A DNA stretch of 64,000 nucleotides from Agromyces subbeticus DSM 16689 (GTDB lineage: Bacteria; Actinomycetota; Actinomycetes; Actinomycetales; Microbacteriaceae), in assembly GCF_000421565.1 (NCBI RefSeq), contig NZ_ATXG01000018.1, forward strand, positions 1-64,000, read 5' to 3'. The translations under genes were made by a program, and so were the position numbers. The notes below the pieces were generated by a model, which was not told the DNA's origin, searched no databases, and saw only the letters and a list, made by a program, of their open reading frames with translations. Positions 1,404-23,654 of the stretch are shown here, in pieces; the stretch's first letter is position 1, and each line of letters starts with the position of its first letter.

Positions 1404-2033
1404 GTGACGAGCACCTCAATCACTTATCAGGCGAGCGCGCCCCTGATCAAACGACCGAACACCGTTGCGGTGGGCACGATCGTCTGGCTCGGCAGCGAGG
1501 TCATGTTCTTCGCGGGCCTCTTCGCGATCTACTTCACCCTGCGGTCGACATCGCCAGATCTCTGGGCGTTCGAGGCCGACCGGCTGAACTTCCCGTTCTC
1601 GCTGACGAACACGATCATCCTCGTGCTGTCGTCGTTCACCTGCCAGTTCGGCGTCTTCGCCGCCGAGCGCCTGCAGCCGTATGCGACCGGGTGGAAACCG
1701 ACCCAGTGGGGCATGGTCGAGTGGTTCTTCCTCACCTATGCCATGGGCGCGATCTTCGTCGCCGGCCAGGTGTGGGAATACGCCACGCTGGTCTCAGAGG
1801 GCATCGCGATCGACTCCAATGCCTACGGCTCGGCGTTCTACCTGACCACCGGGTTCCACGGCCTGCACGTCACCGGCGGCCTGCTCGCCTTCCTCTTCGT
1901 GATCGGCCGCGTCTTCGCGGTCAAGAACTTCGGTCACCGCGAAGCGACGAGCGCGATCGTCGTCTCGTACTACTGGCACTTCGTCGACGTCGTCTGGATC
2001 GGGCTGTTCCTCGTCATCTACGTCCTCAAGTAA
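1404..2033 (+). CDS. ctaE: Cytochrome c oxidase subunit III
   Basis: Subunit III of the aa3-type terminal oxidase, a helical membrane protein of about 209 residues. Recognisable family segments are [17 protein letters not shown] near the N-terminus, a [10 protein letters not shown] histidine motif, and a C-terminal [11 protein letters not shown]. It lies 49 bp upstream of qcrC and reads into qcrCAB, the usual actinobacterial order for the bcc:aa3 supercomplex; the other oxidase subunits are in the facing ctaCDF operon. I chose GTG 1404 (protein beginning VTSTS) because a -10 box overlaps the alternative ATG at 1395, which would add three residues. Confidence 0.93.
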
Positions 2034-2082
2034 GCCGCACCAGGAGCGTCAGCACAGCATGCCCGTGAACAGGAAGATACCC

Positions 2083-2877
2083 ATGACTCGCCAGAAGCGA
2101 CGCACCGGACGCCGGCACCCGCTCGCCACCGTCGCGCTCCTCGCGCTCGGCCTCGTCTTCACCGGTGGCGCCTACGCCGCGCTCAGCACCGGCACCGTCG
2201 CGCAGGCCGAGGCCGACCCCAGCTCGCAGCAGACGATCGAAGAGGGCAAGAAGCTCTTCGCCGCCAACTGCGCCACCTGCCACGGCCTCGCCGCGCAGGG
2301 CACCGACAACGGCCCGAGCCTCGTCGGCGTCGGCGCTGCAGCGGTCGACTTCCAGGTCGGCACCGGTCGCATGCCGATGCAGATGCAGGGGCCGCAGGCG
2401 CTCGAGAAGCCGGTGCAGTTCACCGATGAGCAGGTCAAGCAGCTGGCGTACTACGTCGCATCGCTCGGCCCCGGCCCCGACATCCCCTCCGACCACCTCA
2501 CCAACGGCGGCGGAGATGCCGCCAACGGTGCAGAGCTGTTCCGCATCAACTGCGCGATGTGCCACAACGTGGCCGGTGCGGGCGGCGCTCTCACCCAGGG
2601 CAAGTTCGCTCCTCCGCTGACGGATGTCTCGGGCGTGCACATCTACGAGGCGATGGTCACCGGACCGCAGAACATGCCGGTGTTCAACGACCTGAACATC
2701 TCGCCGGAAGACAAGCGCGACGTGATCACGTACCTCAAGTACGTGCAAGACAACCGCTCGCCCGGCGGTATCGAACTCGGCTCGCTCGGGCCGGTCGCAG
2801 AGGGCCTGTTCATCTGGATCTTCGGTCTCGGCGCGATCGTCGCGATCACCGTGTGGATCACGGCGAAGTCCAACTAG
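2083..2877 (+). CDS. qcrC: Cytochrome bc1 complex diheme cytochrome c subunit
   Basis: QcrC of the actinobacterial bc1 complex. A basic N-terminus is followed by one membrane helix (ALLALGLVFTGGAYAA), then two c-type heme domains with CATCH and CAMCH sites, and a C-terminal anchoring helix (LFIWIFGLGAIVAITVWI). The tandem hemes replace a soluble cytochrome c and pass electrons from the Rieske protein directly to the aa3 oxidase. ATG 2083 is preceded by AGGAAG at 6 nt spacing; an in-frame ATG at 2059 would add eight residues but has a poorer ribosome site. Operon order is ctaE-qcrC-qcrA-qcrB. Confidence 0.94.
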   Translation: MTRQKRRTGRRHPLATVALLALGLVFTGGAYAALSTGTVAQAEADPSSQQTIEEGKKLFAANCATCHGLAAQGTDNGPSLVGVGAAAVDFQVGTGRMPMQMQGPQALEKPVQFTDEQVKQLAYYVASLGPGPDIPSDHLTNGGGDAANGAELFRINCAMCHNVAGAGGALTQGKFAPPLTDVSGVHIYEAMVTGPQNMPVFNDLNISPEDKRDVITYLKYVQDNRSPGGIELGSLGPVAEGLFIWIFGLGAIVAITVWITAKSN

Positions 2878-2915
2878 CGCTCGCCCGGCATCGAAGTAGC
2901 TGAAGAAGGAGAACC

Positions 2916-3992
2916 ATGGCACAGGACGACCACAGCGGCGCCGAGCTCGCCGCTGCCGACTCGTCGCACGCCGCGCACGACATCGATGTCTCGCCCGGAA
3001 CTGCGGTCATCGTGGCCGATTCATTCGAGAATCCCGGCTTCCCGCCGCACCGTCCCCGCGTCACCGACGAGAATCCGAAGCGTGCGAACCGGGCCCAGCG
3101 CACCGTGTACACGCTCTTCTACCTCTCGATCGTCGGCAGCATCTGGGCCATCGCGGCGTACATGCTCTTCCCGATCGAGTCCAACGACGTCGGCGCGGTT
3201 CGCCTGAACAACATGTTCTTCGGACTCGGCTCTGCGCTCGCCCTGCTGGCCATCGGCTTCGGCGTGGTGCACTGGGGCAAGGCGATCATGGCCGACGTCG
3301 AACTGGTCGACGAGCGCCACCCGATCGGCGGCGCTCCCGAGACACAGGCGGCGGCCGTCAAGGTCTTCACCGACTCCGATCGCGAATCGGGCTTCACGCG
3401 CCGCACCGCGATCCGCAACAGCCTCATCGGCGCCCTGCTCGTCTTCCCGCTGCCCGCGGTCGTGCTCTTCCGCGGCTTCGCCCCGCAAGACCAGATTCCG
3501 GTCGAACAGCTCAGCCACACCATGTGGAAGAAGGGCACCCGCCTCGCACTCGACCCGTCGGGTGTGCCCATCAAGGCGTCCGACGTCACGATCGGCAGCG
3601 CCTTCCACGTCATTCCCGAGGGCCTCAGTGAACTCGAGCACGGCAAGCTCGAAGAGAAGGCGAAGGCCGCGGTGCTGCTCATGCGCCTCGAGCCCGACGA
3701 GCTCAACGAACTTCCCGACCGCAAGACGTGGTCGTACGACGGCATCGTCGCCTACTCGAAGATCTGCACGCACGTCGGATGCCCGGTGGCACTCTACGAG
3801 CAGCACACGCACCACCTGCTCTGCCCGTGCCACCAGTCGCAGTTCGACGTGGCGAACCACTGCGAGGTGATCTTCGGCCCGGCGAAGCGTCCGCTTCCGC
3901 AGCTCCCGATCGCCGTCGACGATGAGGGCTACCTCATCGCGCAGAGCGACTTCACCGAACCCGTCGGCCCGAGCTTCTGGGAGCGTCATTGA
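2916..3992 (+). CDS. qcrA: Cytochrome bc1 complex Rieske iron-sulfur subunit
   Basis: This 358-residue Rieske protein transfers electrons from menaquinol to QcrC. It has the three N-terminal membrane helices typical of actinobacterial QcrA (about residues 64-85, 100-120 and 168-187) rather than the single helix of mitochondria. The [2Fe-2S] ligands are visible as CTHVGC (C284, H286, disulfide C289) and CPCH (C303, C305, H306). A strong AAGGAG site precedes the ATG. Its TGA stop overlaps the qcrB start by four bases, implying translational coupling. Confidence 0.96.
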   Translation: MAQDDHSGAELAAADSSHAAHDIDVSPGTAVIVADSFENPGFPPHRPRVTDENPKRANRAQRTVYTLFYLSIVGSIWAIAAYMLFPIESNDVGAVRLNNMFFGLGSALALLAIGFGVVHWGKAIMADVELVDERHPIGGAPETQAAAVKVFTDSDRESGFTRRTAIRNSLIGALLVFPLPAVVLFRGFAPQDQIPVEQLSHTMWKKGTRLALDPSGVPIKASDVTIGSAFHVIPEGLSELEHGKLEEKAKAAVLLMRLEPDELNELPDRKTWSYDGIVAYSKICTHVGCPVALYEQHTHHLLCPCHQSQFDVANHCEVIFGPAKRPLPQLPIAVDDEGYLIAQSDFTEPVGPSFWERH

Positions 3993-17613: not shown

Positions 17614-19692
17614 TCACGCGTCGATGCGGTCGCGCTCCAGCGCATCCGCGCTGTCGATGATGAACTCCTTGCGCGGCGCCACGTCGGTGCCCATGAGGAG
17701 TTCGAAGACGCGCCCGGCATTCTCGACGTCGCCGATGCCGACCTTGCGGAGGGTGCGCTGACGACGATCCATCGTGGTGGTCGCGAGCTGGTCGGCATCC
17801 ATCTCGCCGAGGCCCTTGTATCGCTGGATCGGGTCTTGGTAGCGCTTCTTCTGGCGGTCGAGCGTCGCGAGCACGCCCTTCAGCTCGGCTTCGGAATAGG
17901 TGTAGATCGTCTCGTTCGGCTTCGATCCGGGATTCATGACGACGACCCGGTGCAGCGGCGGCACGGCCGCGAAGACGCGACCGTGCTCGATCATCGGGCG
18001 CATGTAGCGGAAGAAGAGCGTGAGCAGCAGCGTGCGGATGTGCGCACCGTCGACGTCGGCGTCGGCCATCAGGATGACCTTGCCGTATCGAGCGGTCTCG
18101 AGGTCGAAGCTGCGGCCGGAACCCGCACCGATCACCTGGATGATCGACGCGCACTCGGCATTGCCGAGCATGTCGGCGACGCTCGCCTTCTGCACGTTCA
18201 GGATCTTGCCGCGGATCGGCAACAGCGCCTGGTGTTCGCTGTCACGGGCGAGCTTCGCGGTGCCCAGTGCCGAGTCACCCTCGACGATGAACAGTTCACT
18301 CTGCGCGACGTCGTTCGAACGGCAGTCGACGAGCTTGGCCGGCAGCGACGAGCTCTCGAGCGCGTTCTTGCGGCGCTGGGTCTCTTTGTGCGCCCGCGCC
18401 GAGATGCGCGACTTCATCTCGGCCACGACCTTGTCGAGCAGCAGCGACGACTGCGCCTTGTCGTCGCGCTTCGTCGAGGAGAAGCGAGCGCCGAGCTCTT
18501 TCGTCAGCACGTTGGCGACGATCGCACGTACGGCAGGTGTGCCGAGCACCTCTTTCGTCTGGCCCTCGAACTGCGGCTCGGGCAGTCGAACCGTGACGAC
18601 CGCGGTGAGACCGGCGAGCACGTCGTCTTTCTCGAGCTTGTCGTTGCCCGCCTTCAGGCGCCGGGCGTTCTGTTCGACCTGCTGGCGGAGGAACTTCAGC
18701 AGCCCCTGATCGAAGCCCGCCTGGTGCGTGCCGCCCTTCGGTGTCGCGATGATGTTCACGAACGACCGCATGACGGTCTCGTAGCCGGTGCCCCAGCGCA
18801 GCGCGATGTCGACGGTGCACTCGCGTCGCAGCTCGGTGGGCACCATCGCTCCCCCGTCGGTGAGCACCGGCACGGTCTCGGTGAACTCCCCGGTGCCCGT
18901 CAGGCGCCACACATCGGTGATCGGGGCATCCGTCGCCAGGTGCTCGACGAACTCCGAGATGCCGCCCTCGAACTGGAACGACGTCGTGTGCGGTGTCTCG
19001 CCGCGCTCGTCGGTGACGTCGAGCGCGATGCCCGGCACGAGGAACGCGGTCTGGCGTGCGCGTGAGAGCAGTTCTTCGGTCTGGAACTCGGCGCCCTTGG
19101 TGAAGATCTGCCGGTCGGCCCAGTACCGGATGCGGGTTCCGGTGACGCCCTTGGCAACCTTGCCGACGACGCGAAGCTCGCTTCGCTTCTCGAAGGGGGT
19201 GAACGGTGCGTCGGGCGAGGGAGCGCCGGAGTCGGCGAAGTTGCCCGGCTCGCCTCGGTGGAACGACATCGCCCAGGTCTTGCCGTCGCGATCGACCTCG
19301 ACGTCGAGCCGCTCCGAGAGCGCATTCACGACGGATGCCCCGACGCCGTGCAGCCCGCCGGAGGCCGCGTAGGAGCCTGAGCCGAACTTGCCACCGGCGT
19401 GCAGCTTCGTGAACACGACCTCGACACCCGAGAGCCCGGTCTTCGGCTCGATGTCGACGGGGATGCCCCTGGCCTGGTCGCGCACCTCGACGCTGCCGTC
19501 AGGGTGCAGCGTCACGCCGATCTCGTTGCCGTGACCCGCGAGCGCCTCGTCGACGGAGTTGTCGATGATCTCCCAGAGGCAGTGCATGAGGCCTCGGGAA
19601 TCGGTCGAACCGATGTACATGCCTGGCCGCTTGCGCACGGCCTCGAGGCCCTCGAGCACGGAGAGATGGCGGGCGGAATAGTCGGAGCTCAC
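17614..19692 (-). CDS. parE: DNA topoisomerase IV subunit B
   Basis: This 692-residue GHKL ATPase subunit pairs with ParC. It shows RKRPGMYIGSTD (N-terminal arm), EIIDNSVDEALAG (ATP-Mg), GGLHGVGASVVNALS (lid), EGDSALGTAKLARD and DADVDGAHIRTLLL (TOPRIM metal sites). Length is slightly above that of ParE/GyrB of this type. Start GTG 19692 gives a protein beginning VSSDYSARHLSVLEGL, which fits homologs; a TTG at 19701 would add three residues. TAGGCT lies 8 nt before the GTG, so a leaderless message is possible. Confidence 0.93.
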   Translation of the reverse strand: MSSDYSARHLSVLEGLEAVRKRPGMYIGSTDSRGLMHCLWEIIDNSVDEALAGHGNEIGVTLHPDGSVEVRDQARGIPVDIEPKTGLSGVEVVFTKLHAGGKFGSGSYAASGGLHGVGASVVNALSERLDVEVDRDGKTWAMSFHRGEPGNFADSGAPSPDAPFTPFEKRSELRVVGKVAKGVTGTRIRYWADRQIFTKGAEFQTEELLSRARQTAFLVPGIALDVTDERGETPHTTSFQFEGGISEFVEHLATDAPITDVWRLTGTGEFTETVPVLTDGGAMVPTELRRECTVDIALRWGTGYETVMRSFVNIIATPKGGTHQAGFDQGLLKFLRQQVEQNARRLKAGNDKLEKDDVLAGLTAVVTVRLPEPQFEGQTKEVLGTPAVRAIVANVLTKELGARFSSTKRDDKAQSSLLLDKVVAEMKSRISARAHKETQRRKNALESSSLPAKLVDCRSNDVAQSELFIVEGDSALGTAKLARDSEHQALLPIRGKILNVQKASVADMLGNAECASIIQVIGAGSGRSFDLETARYGKVILMADADVDGAHIRTLLLTLFFRYMRPMIEHGRVFAAVPPLHRVVVMNPGSKPNETIYTYSEAELKGVLATLDRQKKRYQDPIQRYKGLGEMDADQLATTTMDRRQRTLRKVGIGDVENAGRVFELLMGTDVAPRKEFIIDSADALERDRIDA

Positions 19693-20176: not shown

Positions 20177-20914
20177 TCAGGAAACCGGAACGCTCACGCC
20201 GGCAACGGCGAGTTGTGCGGCCCGCGCGGCCGCGGCATACCCGTCGACGGTTCGCGCCTGTTCGCCGGGCGTGTACTCCTGACCGGAGCGCGCCGCGATG
20301 GTCGAGAGCAGGTGGTCGGCGAACACCGGGTTCTTCGCGAGGATGGGCCCGTGCATATGCGTGCCGTAGACGCTGCCCATGACGGCGCCCTCCTGCCCGG
20401 AATCGCGCCCGTTGCCGTGGCCGGCGCGCACGCGCCCCAGTGGCGAGCCCTCGGCTCCCACGTAGTCGCGCGCGTGGTTCTCGAAGCCCACGAGGGCGCC
20501 CAATCGCGGTGCCGCGATGACGAGATCGCCGGTGACCCTGCCAGCGCGGGGCACGGCGCGCCCCGGAAGGATGCCGAGCCCTTCGATCGAACGGCCGTCG
20601 TGCAACTCGACGCCCCAGCTGAGCAGTTCCCAGCCGGTGCCGATCGACAGGATCGGCACGCCTTCGGTGCCCCAGCGGCGCAATTCGTCGTGCATCGTGA
20701 GCAGGGCAGCACGGCTCGGCTCGAGCGCCGAGTCACTGCCGGAGCCGAGCACGACCGCATCGACCCGTGAGGGAAGGGCCTGCGCCGACTCGACGTCGAC
20801 CACGGTCGCCTCGAGCCCGGCCCAGCGGGCACGGGCAGCGAGCACGTGAGCGTTCTGAGCGTCGCCATTGGTGTTCTGGAGGCGAGGCAGCAGCGACACG
20901 ATCGTGAGGGTCAT
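20177..20914 (-). CDS. GatD-like amidotransferase lacking the catalytic cysteine
   Basis: This 245-residue protein is full-length homologous to GatD, the glutaminase half of the MurT-GatD complex that amidates the D-Glu alpha-carboxyl of lipid II. Shared segments are EGLGIL, VGFENH and GTHMHGPILAKNP; the last keeps the catalytic His (H188). The nucleophile elbow, ICGGYQFLG in S. aureus GatD as I recall it, reads IGTGWELLS here, with Gly92 in place of Cys. The GGGSDREQ loop is also altered, to GSGSDSALE. The protein has no cysteine at all, so it cannot form the glutamyl thioester. Its ATG overlaps the murT-like stop (ATGA). It may be a structural partner or channel rather than a glutaminase. 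Confidence 0.82.
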   Translation of the reverse strand: MTLTIVSLLPRLQNTNGDAQNAHVLAARARWAGLEATVVDVESAQALPSRVDAVVLGSGSDSALEPSRAALLTMHDELRRWGTEGVPILSIGTGWELLSWGVELHDGRSIEGLGILPGRAVPRAGRVTGDLVIAAPRLGALVGFENHARDYVGAEGSPLGRVRAGHGNGRDSGQEGAVMGSVYGTHMHGPILAKNPVFADHLLSTIAARSGQEYTPGEQARTVDGYAAAARAAQLAVAGVSVPVS

Positions 20915-22176
20915 TCTGCTCCTGCGAGTCCGAGATGGGCGCGGGTGCGGCGCATGGAGTCCGCGGTGAAGACGATCGTCTTCACCCCGTTCGCCGGCGT
21001 CGGCATGGCGAGGAAGTCATCGAGTGCGCGGTCGAGATCCGGCTCGACGCGATCGATCGCGACGCCGTCGTAGGCGAGCATCAGCGCCGCCTCGGCGGCC
21101 TTCGACCCGCTGACCACGCTGACCCGGCCGAGGGATGCGGCATTCGTCGGCCAGAAGTACGAGGGGTCGCGCACGTCGGACCCGACCGCGAAGAGGATCT
21201 GCTCGGTGCCGGGCGCGATGCTGTCGACGTTGAGCTGGTAGCTCGCGGGGTTCTGGACGAGCACGAAATCGACCTCGTGGCCGCGCACCGTCGCCCGCTC
21301 ACCGCGGCCGAAGACCGCGGGGATCGAGCTGAGCGCCTCGGTGGTGAGCTTCGCCGAGAATCGATCGCCGAGCACGGCATGGGCCGTCGCATACGCGGCC
21401 GCGGCGTCGACGGCGTAGTGCACACCGCGTGCCGGAAGGGACGTGGTGACGCGGTCTCGGCCGTCGTCGAGGGTTGCCGACCGACCGTCGACCGATTCGA
21501 CTCTGACGCCCGGCCGCTGTTCGTCGATCTCGAGGCGCGACTCGGATGTCTCGGTGTACCCGAGGCCGCGAGGCGCAGTGGCCAGCACCGCCTGCGCCAC
21601 GCCGAACCGGTGCACCGCGACGCCCGGTCGTACGCGCGCCGCGAGCCGTTCGAGGTAGGCGTCGTCGGCATTGACGACGACGGCCTCACCGGCCCGTGCT
21701 GCGATGCGTGCGAGCATGCCCGCGACCATCTCGGAGTCGTGGAATCGGTCGATCTGGTCGACCATCACGTTCATGAGGGTGACGACGCGCGCGTCGACGC
21801 CCTGCATCACGAGCGCGCCGTGGCCCTCGTCCATTTCGAGCACCGCGACGTCACCGGGCACTCGGCCACGCCAGTCGGCCTGCTCGAGCAGCGCCGAGGT
21901 CAGGCCCTGGCTGATGTTCGCGGTCGACGGATTGGTGAACACGTCGACCCCGTGGGCGCGCAGGATGGCGACGAGCATCTTCGTCGTGGTCGACTTGCCG
22001 CTCGAGCCCGAGACGACGACGAGCCCCTGCGGGAAGCCCGACAGCGTGCGCTTCAGGTAGCCGGGGGCGATGCGATTGACGACCAGCCCCGGAACGGCCG
22101 ATCCGCCGCCGGGCTTGCGCAGCCGGGCGGCGAATCGGGTGAGCCTGCCGACGAGGATCGCCGGCGCGTAGCGCAC
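20911..22176 (-). CDS. MurT-like Mur ligase family protein without zinc ribbon
   Basis: A 421-residue Mur-ligase-fold ATPase of the MurT type. It has a P-loop at residues 56-64 (GSSGKSTTT; canonical MurT has GTNGKTT), NPSTANISQG, NADD (169-172) and the GRGE turn (290-293). Canonical MurT carries a Cys4 zinc ribbon in the central domain; here the matching stretch (about residues 190-225) has no cysteine, nor does the rest of the protein. The segment that normally supplies the catalytic Asp to GatD (a WDVDF-like stretch) reads FWPTNA. GTG 22176 starts 7 bases after the sigA stop, so it is probably co-transcribed with sigA. Activation of a carboxylate by ATP remains plausible; the nucleophile is unknown. 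Confidence 0.82.
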   Translation of the reverse strand: MRYAPAILVGRLTRFAARLRKPGGGSAVPGLVVNRIAPGYLKRTLSGFPQGLVVVSGSSGKSTTTKMLVAILRAHGVDVFTNPSTANISQGLTSALLEQADWRGRVPGDVAVLEMDEGHGALVMQGVDARVVTLMNVMVDQIDRFHDSEMVAGMLARIAARAGEAVVVNADDAYLERLAARVRPGVAVHRFGVAQAVLATAPRGLGYTETSESRLEIDEQRPGVRVESVDGRSATLDDGRDRVTTSLPARGVHYAVDAAAAYATAHAVLGDRFSAKLTTEALSSIPAVFGRGERATVRGHEVDFVLVQNPASYQLNVDSIAPGTEQILFAVGSDVRDPSYFWPTNAASLGRVSVVSGSKAAEAALMLAYDGVAIDRVEPDLDRALDDFLAMPTPANGVKTIVFTADSMRRTRAHLGLAGAE

Positions 22177-22183
22177 TCGCGGC

Positions 22184-23494
<1,311 letters not shown>

Positions 23495-23654
23495 TCGTTG
23501 AACCTCTCCTACCGTCATGCCCGTGTGCTCTTCTGAGTACTCGGCTCATGCACTCGGTCCGGGTCGTTTTCGGACACTATGAGGACCCATGTCAAGTCCG
23601 CGGGATCGGCGTGAGCAACGTCACGCCCTGCGGACCAGAACGGGTCCTGCCTCC

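Follow-up and report, generated by a model that had tools for sequence, protein, structure and literature searches.

Genes at the locus

We analyzed a window of 64,000 nucleotides, meaning the whole stretch of DNA under study, from Agromyces subbeticus DSM 16689 (NZ_ATXG01000018.1, positions 1 to 64,000), a soil bacterium of the Microbacteriaceae, with a focus on two adjacent genes encoding a MurT-like ligase and a GatD-like protein. MurT-GatD normally amidates the alpha-carboxyl of D-Glu with ammonia derived from glutamine. In B-type peptidoglycan, the type found in the Microbacteriaceae, the cross-bridge residue sits on this alpha-carboxyl, and in B2 peptidoglycan the bridge begins with a D-diamino acid; B-type Firmicutes, such as Erysipelothrix, also exist. 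No enzyme or described family is known to us that has been shown to attach the group B bridge residue to D-Glu. In a literature search at the level of titles and abstracts, with little coverage of subscription journals, none of the matches listed connects group B bridges with MurT-GatD or with a CofE-like protein. The genes in question are as follows.

20177 to 20914, minus strand: GatD-like protein of 245 amino acids with a CobQ/GATase_3 fold that lacks the glutaminase cysteine (PF07685, 64.6 bits against a cut-off of 27)
20911 to 22176, minus strand: MurT-like ligase of 421 amino acids (Mur_ligase_M), with a GTG start at 22176

The two open reading frames overlap through ATGA. An earlier note on this DNA had reported that neither protein contains a cysteine and that the MurT lacks the Cys4 zinc ribbon, and the open reading frames bear out both observations. 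The MurT_C match of the ligase hovers around the Pfam cut-off of 25 (21.6 bits in one profile search and 25.2 in another), and the NCBIfam equivalog cut-offs are missed by far (at best 114 versus 450 bits for GatD and 76 versus 800 for MurT). The closest solved sequences are MurT-GatD chains, of the Staphylococcus aureus, Streptococcus pneumoniae, and Streptococcus pyogenes type (9sq9). An AlphaFold2 model of the GatD (mean predicted local distance difference test score, 96.2) has S. aureus GatD as its top match in the Protein Data Bank (PDB) (6gs2_A; template modeling [TM] score, 0.89). For the MurT model (92.0) the best E-value in the PDB belongs to S. aureus MurT (6h5e_B) at a TM score of only 0.50, and TM scores are higher, up to 0.67, against MurF structures, a pattern that a different domain closure would produce. 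The nearest named relatives are from Agromyces species, with identities of up to 87% for MurT and 80% for GatD. A second intact MurT-GatD in the same genome, which the earlier note had named as evidence that would speak against its interpretation, was not found: the genome has one MurT_C match and one strong MurT match, together with three further GATase_3 matches, all on other contigs.

The ligase site of MurT

Three features of the ligase are listed first.

21988 to 22008, minus strand: MurT P-loop, GSSGKST
21166 to 21168, minus strand: MurT Asp337 in RDPSYFW, equivalent to S. aureus D349 and S. pneumoniae D355
21400 to 21420, minus strand: MurT HYAVDAA, a frequent motif of the main Cys-less clade

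The segment that supplies the catalytic aspartate had been described as missing; it is in fact present, since RDPSYFW aligns to the S. pneumoniae motif GIDTSWIWD (D355), which corresponds to GRDTSWIYD (D349) in S. aureus, and the column of this triad aspartate is at least 90% conserved across 59 aligned MurT sequences. The window MurT also retains the acidic pair (LEMDE) and the acceptor asparagine (NPSTAN), whose roles are described in the S. pneumoniae work, as well as the tryptophan whose counterpart is needed in S. pneumoniae for holding GatD (PMC6085368). At the position of HYAVDAA, the Cys-bearing Micrococcales MurT sequences displayed have YNxFNAA. Loss of the zinc ribbon, which the earlier note used as an argument, was considered as a sign of new function and rejected, as it is common among Cys-bearing pairs: the MurT of 19 of 30 such pairs outside the Microbacteriaceae has no CxxC.

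A remodeled GatD pocket

The GatD residues discussed here are as follows.

20639 to 20641, minus strand: GatD Gly92 in the elbow IGTGWELL, replacing the nucleophile cysteine (S. aureus C94)
20867 to 20869, minus strand: GatD Asn16 in NTNGD, replacing the gate tyrosine (S. pneumoniae Y30, S. aureus Y17)
20537 to 20539, minus strand: GatD Arg126, equivalent to S. aureus R128, the substrate-capturing arginine (R128/R142), retained
20351 to 20353, minus strand: GatD His188 in MHGP (S. aureus H189), retained
20477 to 20479, minus strand: GatD Asn146 in GFENH, which is Asp in the Curtobacterium/Frigoribacterium subgroup

Translation and alignment confirm the earlier observation that glycine replaces the elbow cysteine and that the histidine of MHGP is kept in the window, although retention of the histidine is not general among Cys-less proteins (129 of 200 in the main Cys-less set and 0 of 10 in a second set that keeps the zinc ribbon). 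In 257 GatD sequences, 47 Cys-bearing and 210 Cys-less, the residues Tyr16, Gly58, Asp61, Gln96, Tyr186, and His188 are invariant in all 47 Cys-bearing proteins. The Cys-less proteins have lost the gate Tyr16 in 209 of 210 cases (one keeps it), Gly58 in 203 of the 209 sequences that cover this position (six keep it), and Tyr186 in 203 of 206 (three keep it); Asp61, Gln96, and His188 are partially lost, being kept in 67, 52, and 129 of the 210, respectively. Arg126 is kept in 194 of 210, and Asn21 is kept as well. This pattern looks like the rebuilding of a pocket, not its decay.

In S. pneumoniae, Y30 plugs the ammonia path (PMC6085368, PMC5871853), and in S. aureus the loss of the substrate arginine stops the use of glutamine (PMC5871853). 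An S. aureus GatD with the C94G exchange, combined with MurT, loses glutamine use but at pH 8.5 still supports ammonia-dependent amidation of lipid II (PMC3266927); a glycine elbow can therefore leave a working amine ligase. These same data favor the main rival explanation, an ammonia-dependent amidase that still makes D-iso-glutamine from free ammonia and needs neither cysteine nor gate, and the ligase residues kept in MurT are compatible with it. We consider it unlikely, in part because it leaves unexplained the retained substrate arginine and the subgroup-specific pocket residues. Ammonia might also be borrowed in trans from another glutaminase, given that a glycine elbow accepts ammonia and that three other GATase_3 matches exist in the genome; with all three on other contigs, we regard such borrowing as very improbable.

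Distribution and origins of cysteine loss

Among 150 Microbacteriaceae genomes, 115 had a GatD match and 121 a MurT match, leaving 29 without MurT. This split was read from the match table: the best matches of the 29, at 1.5e-17 to 4.9e-9, were taken as other Mur ligases, and G005 (2.8e-40) and G099 (6.4e-22, a fragment) were counted as MurT-bearing. We read 118 pairs from the family, including three taken from the sample of the order; 101 of the 118 lack the cysteine and 17 carry it; the 101 Cys-less pairs span 99 genomes and 63 genus codes. Ten MurT-bearing genomes of the family are outside these cysteine counts (G031, G035, G038, G086, G090, G095, G107, G108, G114, and G144), loci L001 to L005 and L155 to L157 were left out of the pair tables, and L085, a MurT fragment, is outside the 118. 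No Cys-less pair was found outside the Microbacteriaceae in the 53 loci of 50 genomes that were read, all of which are Cys-bearing (30/30 and 23/23, with three genomes common to the two sets); the class-level loci among them are the best matches to a Cys-less query, and the 50 are those read among many more genomes outside the family with a GatD match (one search matched 191 of 345 genomes).

An exact-pattern signature of the Cys-less MurT, present in 51 of 101 Cys-less and 0 of 47 Cys-bearing sequences, was used to scan named genomes and recovered at least 120 loci; 113 of 120 titles among the matches listed are Microbacteriaceae or its genera, and none of the 108 listed loci at which GatD was readable has the cysteine. 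The other seven titles ("Acidobacteria" twice, "Actinomycetes" twice, "Planococcus," "Micrococcales," and "Corynebacterium-like") seem, at least in part, to be loose or wrong. Records L162, L236, and L195, titled Acidobacteria or Planococcus, hold genes of the Microbacteriaceae type and are probably mislabeled, and the MurT of L195 is 84% identical to that of the Microbacteriaceae genome G312.

The cysteine was lost at least twice, as both a FastTree tree of 148 MurT sequences and an IQ-TREE tree of 62 require two losses, and a single Cys-less clade is rejected (approximately unbiased test, p 0.00284). The 62 sequences of the IQ-TREE analysis were picked from the 148 after the FastTree tree had been viewed, with very long branches excluded by choice. 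In the second Cys-less lineage (10 sequences) MurT retains its zinc ribbon and the GatD histidine is gone as well; both lineages lie within the Microbacteriaceae. A strongly diverged Cys-less MurT-GatD occurs in a Microbacteriaceae genome of 0.93 Mb (G015, L102).

The earlier note had proposed a test of whether cysteine loss tracks with B-type peptidoglycan. The 50 genomes read outside the family, all Cys-bearing, agree with such a link; within the family, Cys-less and Cys-bearing pairs occur together in three genomes (G054, L049/L072; G124, L056/L077; G066, L048/L082). An ammonia-dependent amidase accounts neither for a cysteine loss seen only in a B-type family nor for genomes with an additional Cys-bearing pair.

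A shared slot between rpoD and parE

The window pair occupies a slot between two genes that were recognized from their sequences, not by a family search.

22184 to 23518, minus strand: rpoD, encoding the principal sigma factor and bordering the slot upstream
17614 to 19653, minus strand: parE/gyrB-like gene for a topoisomerase subunit, bordering the slot downstream (approximate start)

The retrieved flanking sequence includes rpoD or parE for 93 of the 101 Cys-less pairs, both lineages represented, versus 0 of the 17 Cys-bearing pairs of the family (p 7.7e-15); neither gene flanks any of 30 pairs outside the family. That MurT-less genomes have no ligase at all was an idea revised after the slots were read: of the first seven MurT-less slots, six hold a protein of ~240 amino acids that belongs to the Pfam family F420_ligase (CofE-like), including one in the genus Agromyces (G284), and two of these proteins scored 42.6 and 56.2 bits when tested (cut-off 25). 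The seventh slot, in G119 (L320), appears from its sequence to hold an amino acid ABC transporter in place of a ligase.

Strong CofE-like genes, defined by an E-value of 1.6e-99 or better in a search with a limit of 1e-20, are present in 21 of the 29 MurT-less genomes versus 0 of the 121 MurT-bearing genomes of the family (Fisher p 1.9e-19), and 19 of the 21 adjoin rpoD or parE. This mutual exclusion also holds within single genera; in one large genus (g85), which is probably Microbacterium, six genomes have the CofE-like gene without the pair and three have the pair without the CofE-like gene. A second exclusivity test (p 0.003) used 11 genomes, one of which (G106) is shared with the 150; the absence of the pair in G634 is read from the GatD search only. 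Compared by sequence with solved structures, the CofE-like protein gave no match at E 0.01. In Gryllotalpicola protaetiae (G123, named from a 100% identical plasmid) and a second genome of its genus code (G053), at loci L345 and L346 with L151 and L152, the Cys-less MurT-GatD with the zinc ribbon adjoins a diverged CofE-like gene, and of 27 genomes of the order outside the family only one (G160, L380, family f12) has a diverged CofE-like gene, in an open frame of 894 codons.

Alanine-racemase-like genes flank 29 of the 101 Cys-less pairs, and 7 of the 21 short CofE-like loci contain them too. In several slots they stand in tandem (L316, positions 1772 to 3804; L319, 1369 to 2463; L318, 4042 to 5828): AlrA has the barrel with the lysine motif VVKxxAYGHG, AlrB, which carries the tyrosine motif VSYG, gives a Pfam match to the C-terminal domain alone, and the two look as if they were a split heterodimeric racemase.

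The exchange of genes in the slot is a further point that an ammonia-dependent amidase leaves unexplained, and exchange with another ligase is easier to reconcile with amino acid ligation than with a dead amidase. A decaying or regulatory pseudoenzyme without catalysis could be imagined from the loss of the cysteine, often of the histidine too, and from the 29 of 150 genomes that have no MurT, yet Cys-less pairs are spread over 63 genus codes, the ATP site is intact, the folds of the window pair are predicted with high confidence, the genomic position is strongly conserved, and the pocket changes in concert; we give this explanation very little weight.

Pocket residues and peptidoglycan type

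Peptidoglycan type was compared for a few genera only. Curtobacterium, whose diamino acid is D-ornithine (Orn), has Ser16 and Asp146 in 18 of 18 cases, and Rathayibacter, Leifsonia, Plantibacter, and Herbiconiux, which have diaminobutyric acid (Dab), show the Asn form. Named loci of the Dab genera Agromyces (PMC5217419), Clavibacter (PMC9603630), Cryobacterium and Glaciihabitans (PMC7033078), and Subtercola (PMC5945732) all have Asn16, together with Asn146 where readable. Ser or Ala16 with Asp146 is found in Frigoribacterium, Frondihabitans, and Salinibacterium (five, one, and one loci), for which D-Lys, Orn, and Lys/Orn (PMC7033078), respectively, are documented. The correlation between gate residue and diamino acid is only suggestive, because it amounts to one event on the tree.

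The pair could also be an amino acid ligase for another residue or position: it might put glycine onto D-Glu (B1), add a residue that extends the bridge, or act on some other carboxylate of the cytoplasm. We think this somewhat less likely still than the ammonia-dependent amidase; the carriers include the B2 genera Agromyces, Clavibacter, Cryobacterium, Subtercola, Frondihabitans, and Frigoribacterium, and the first bridge residue of B2 peptidoglycan is a D-diamino acid. On its side, the evidence from slot, racemase, and pocket does not name the substrate, and diamino acids vary within the Microbacteriaceae (PMC7033078, PMC10757982), with Lys, Orn, and Dab types represented among Microbacterium species (PMC10757982).

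A proposed amino acid ligase

We consider it probable that the pair is an amide ligase derived from MurT-GatD in which the glutaminase has turned into a subunit that docks an amino acid, probably for joining the bridge diamino acid to the alpha-carboxyl of D-Glu. An amino acid is favored as the amine because cysteine loss was seen in one family only, a different ligase gene can replace the pair at the same locus, and the arginine is kept. With ATP, MurT would convert a carboxyl to an acyl phosphate, as its retained active-site residues suggest; the alpha-carboxyl of D-Glu in the peptidoglycan precursor is the most likely one. GatD, which has lost nucleophile and gate and kept the arginine, would no longer hydrolyze glutamine; its open pocket would present an amino acid, and the amino group of the latter would attack the acyl phosphate. 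For B2 peptidoglycan this would mean docking of the bridge diamino acid, which is D-Dab in Clavibacter (PMC9603630); Agromyces aureus has B2gamma peptidoglycan (PMC5217419).

The main Cys-less MurT-GatD, the Cys-less MurT-GatD with a zinc ribbon, and the CofE-like ligase exchange in the slot, and all three may do the same job. More tentatively, as a possibility to which we give somewhat less than even weight, the rpoD-parE slot may encode the group B ligase in three or more forms that evolved separately (two independent Cys-less MurT-GatD lineages and the CofE-like protein), with GatD docking the bridge amino acid and its pocket residues selecting the diamino acid. The selecting residues would be the gate Asn or Ser/Thr/Ala, Asn or Asp146, and His or Gln/Lys/Gly188, for Dab or for Orn/Lys.

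Several observations weigh against the reading of the pair as an amino acid ligase for the bridge. About 22 of the 150 Microbacteriaceae genomes showed no slot ligase: 8 have neither gene and 14 have a Cys-bearing pair only. Slots were read in 12 of these 14 genomes and in 5 of the 8, plus G119; in 16 of 17 inspected genomes the rpoD-parE gap measures 43 to 742 bp, too short for the module (in the window, the stretch separating parE from gatD already takes up ~520 bp), and in G049 it is ~3 kb. In such slot-empty genomes the link with B-type peptidoglycan breaks, unless their peptidoglycan is of another type or a fourth enzyme does the work there. Diverged CofE-like copies co-occur with MurT in three genomes (two of the Gryllotalpicola genus and G147). 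The slot of the window has no racemase gene, the genome having one alanine-racemase-like gene elsewhere. With respect to the pocket, G080, which has the genus code of Salinibacterium sedimenticola, has Asn16 and Asn146, and the Ser/Thr/Ala16 group forms one clade in the IQ-TREE tree, that is, one change. Lastly, a mass spectrometry study of Clavibacter muropeptides assigned some D-Glu amidation (PMC9603630), which also speaks for the ammonia-dependent amidase.

The earlier note had proposed the pair as the missing B-type bridge ligase. Cysteine loss, seen only in the Microbacteriaceae among the genomes read, and the slot exchange are consistent with a role in amino acid ligation, and that part of the proposal stands as a candidate function. 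A single universal B-type ligase is ruled out by the 29 of 150 genomes without a MurT pair (21 with the CofE-like gene and 8 with neither), assuming that those are B-type, and by the slot-empty genomes, which include 14 more with a Cys-bearing pair only.

If the proposal is correct, what was once a glutaminase now serves as a carrier subunit for an amino acid, and candidate bridge ligases could be predicted from a single genomic slot for much of the Microbacteriaceae, including plant pathogens. Group B peptidoglycan has been used in bacterial classification for decades, and the long-open question of its bridge would become directly testable.

Comparison with known systems

The closest known system is MurT-GatD of S. 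aureus and S. pneumoniae, with which the window pair shares the two-gene operon, the folds, the MurT ATP site and acceptor asparagine, the interface tryptophan and aspartate, the GatD arginine, and its best PDB matches by E-value. It differs in lacking the cysteine nucleophile, the gate tyrosine, and the zinc ribbon, and in having a remodeled pocket and HYAVDAA in MurT. The MurC-F ligases and the pseudomurein peptide ligases are structural matches to the window MurT, and in Mur ligases an amino acid attacks the acyl phosphate, the step proposed here. Unlike MurC-F, MurT has no N-terminal domain (PMC6113224) and depends on a GatD partner. The third comparison is with CofE, the F420-0:gamma-glutamyl ligase (PF01996), a member of whose family holds the same slot in MurT-less relatives; this slot protein falls below the TIGR01916 cut-off (30 to 35 versus 181 bits) and, as far as searched, has no homology to the window proteins.

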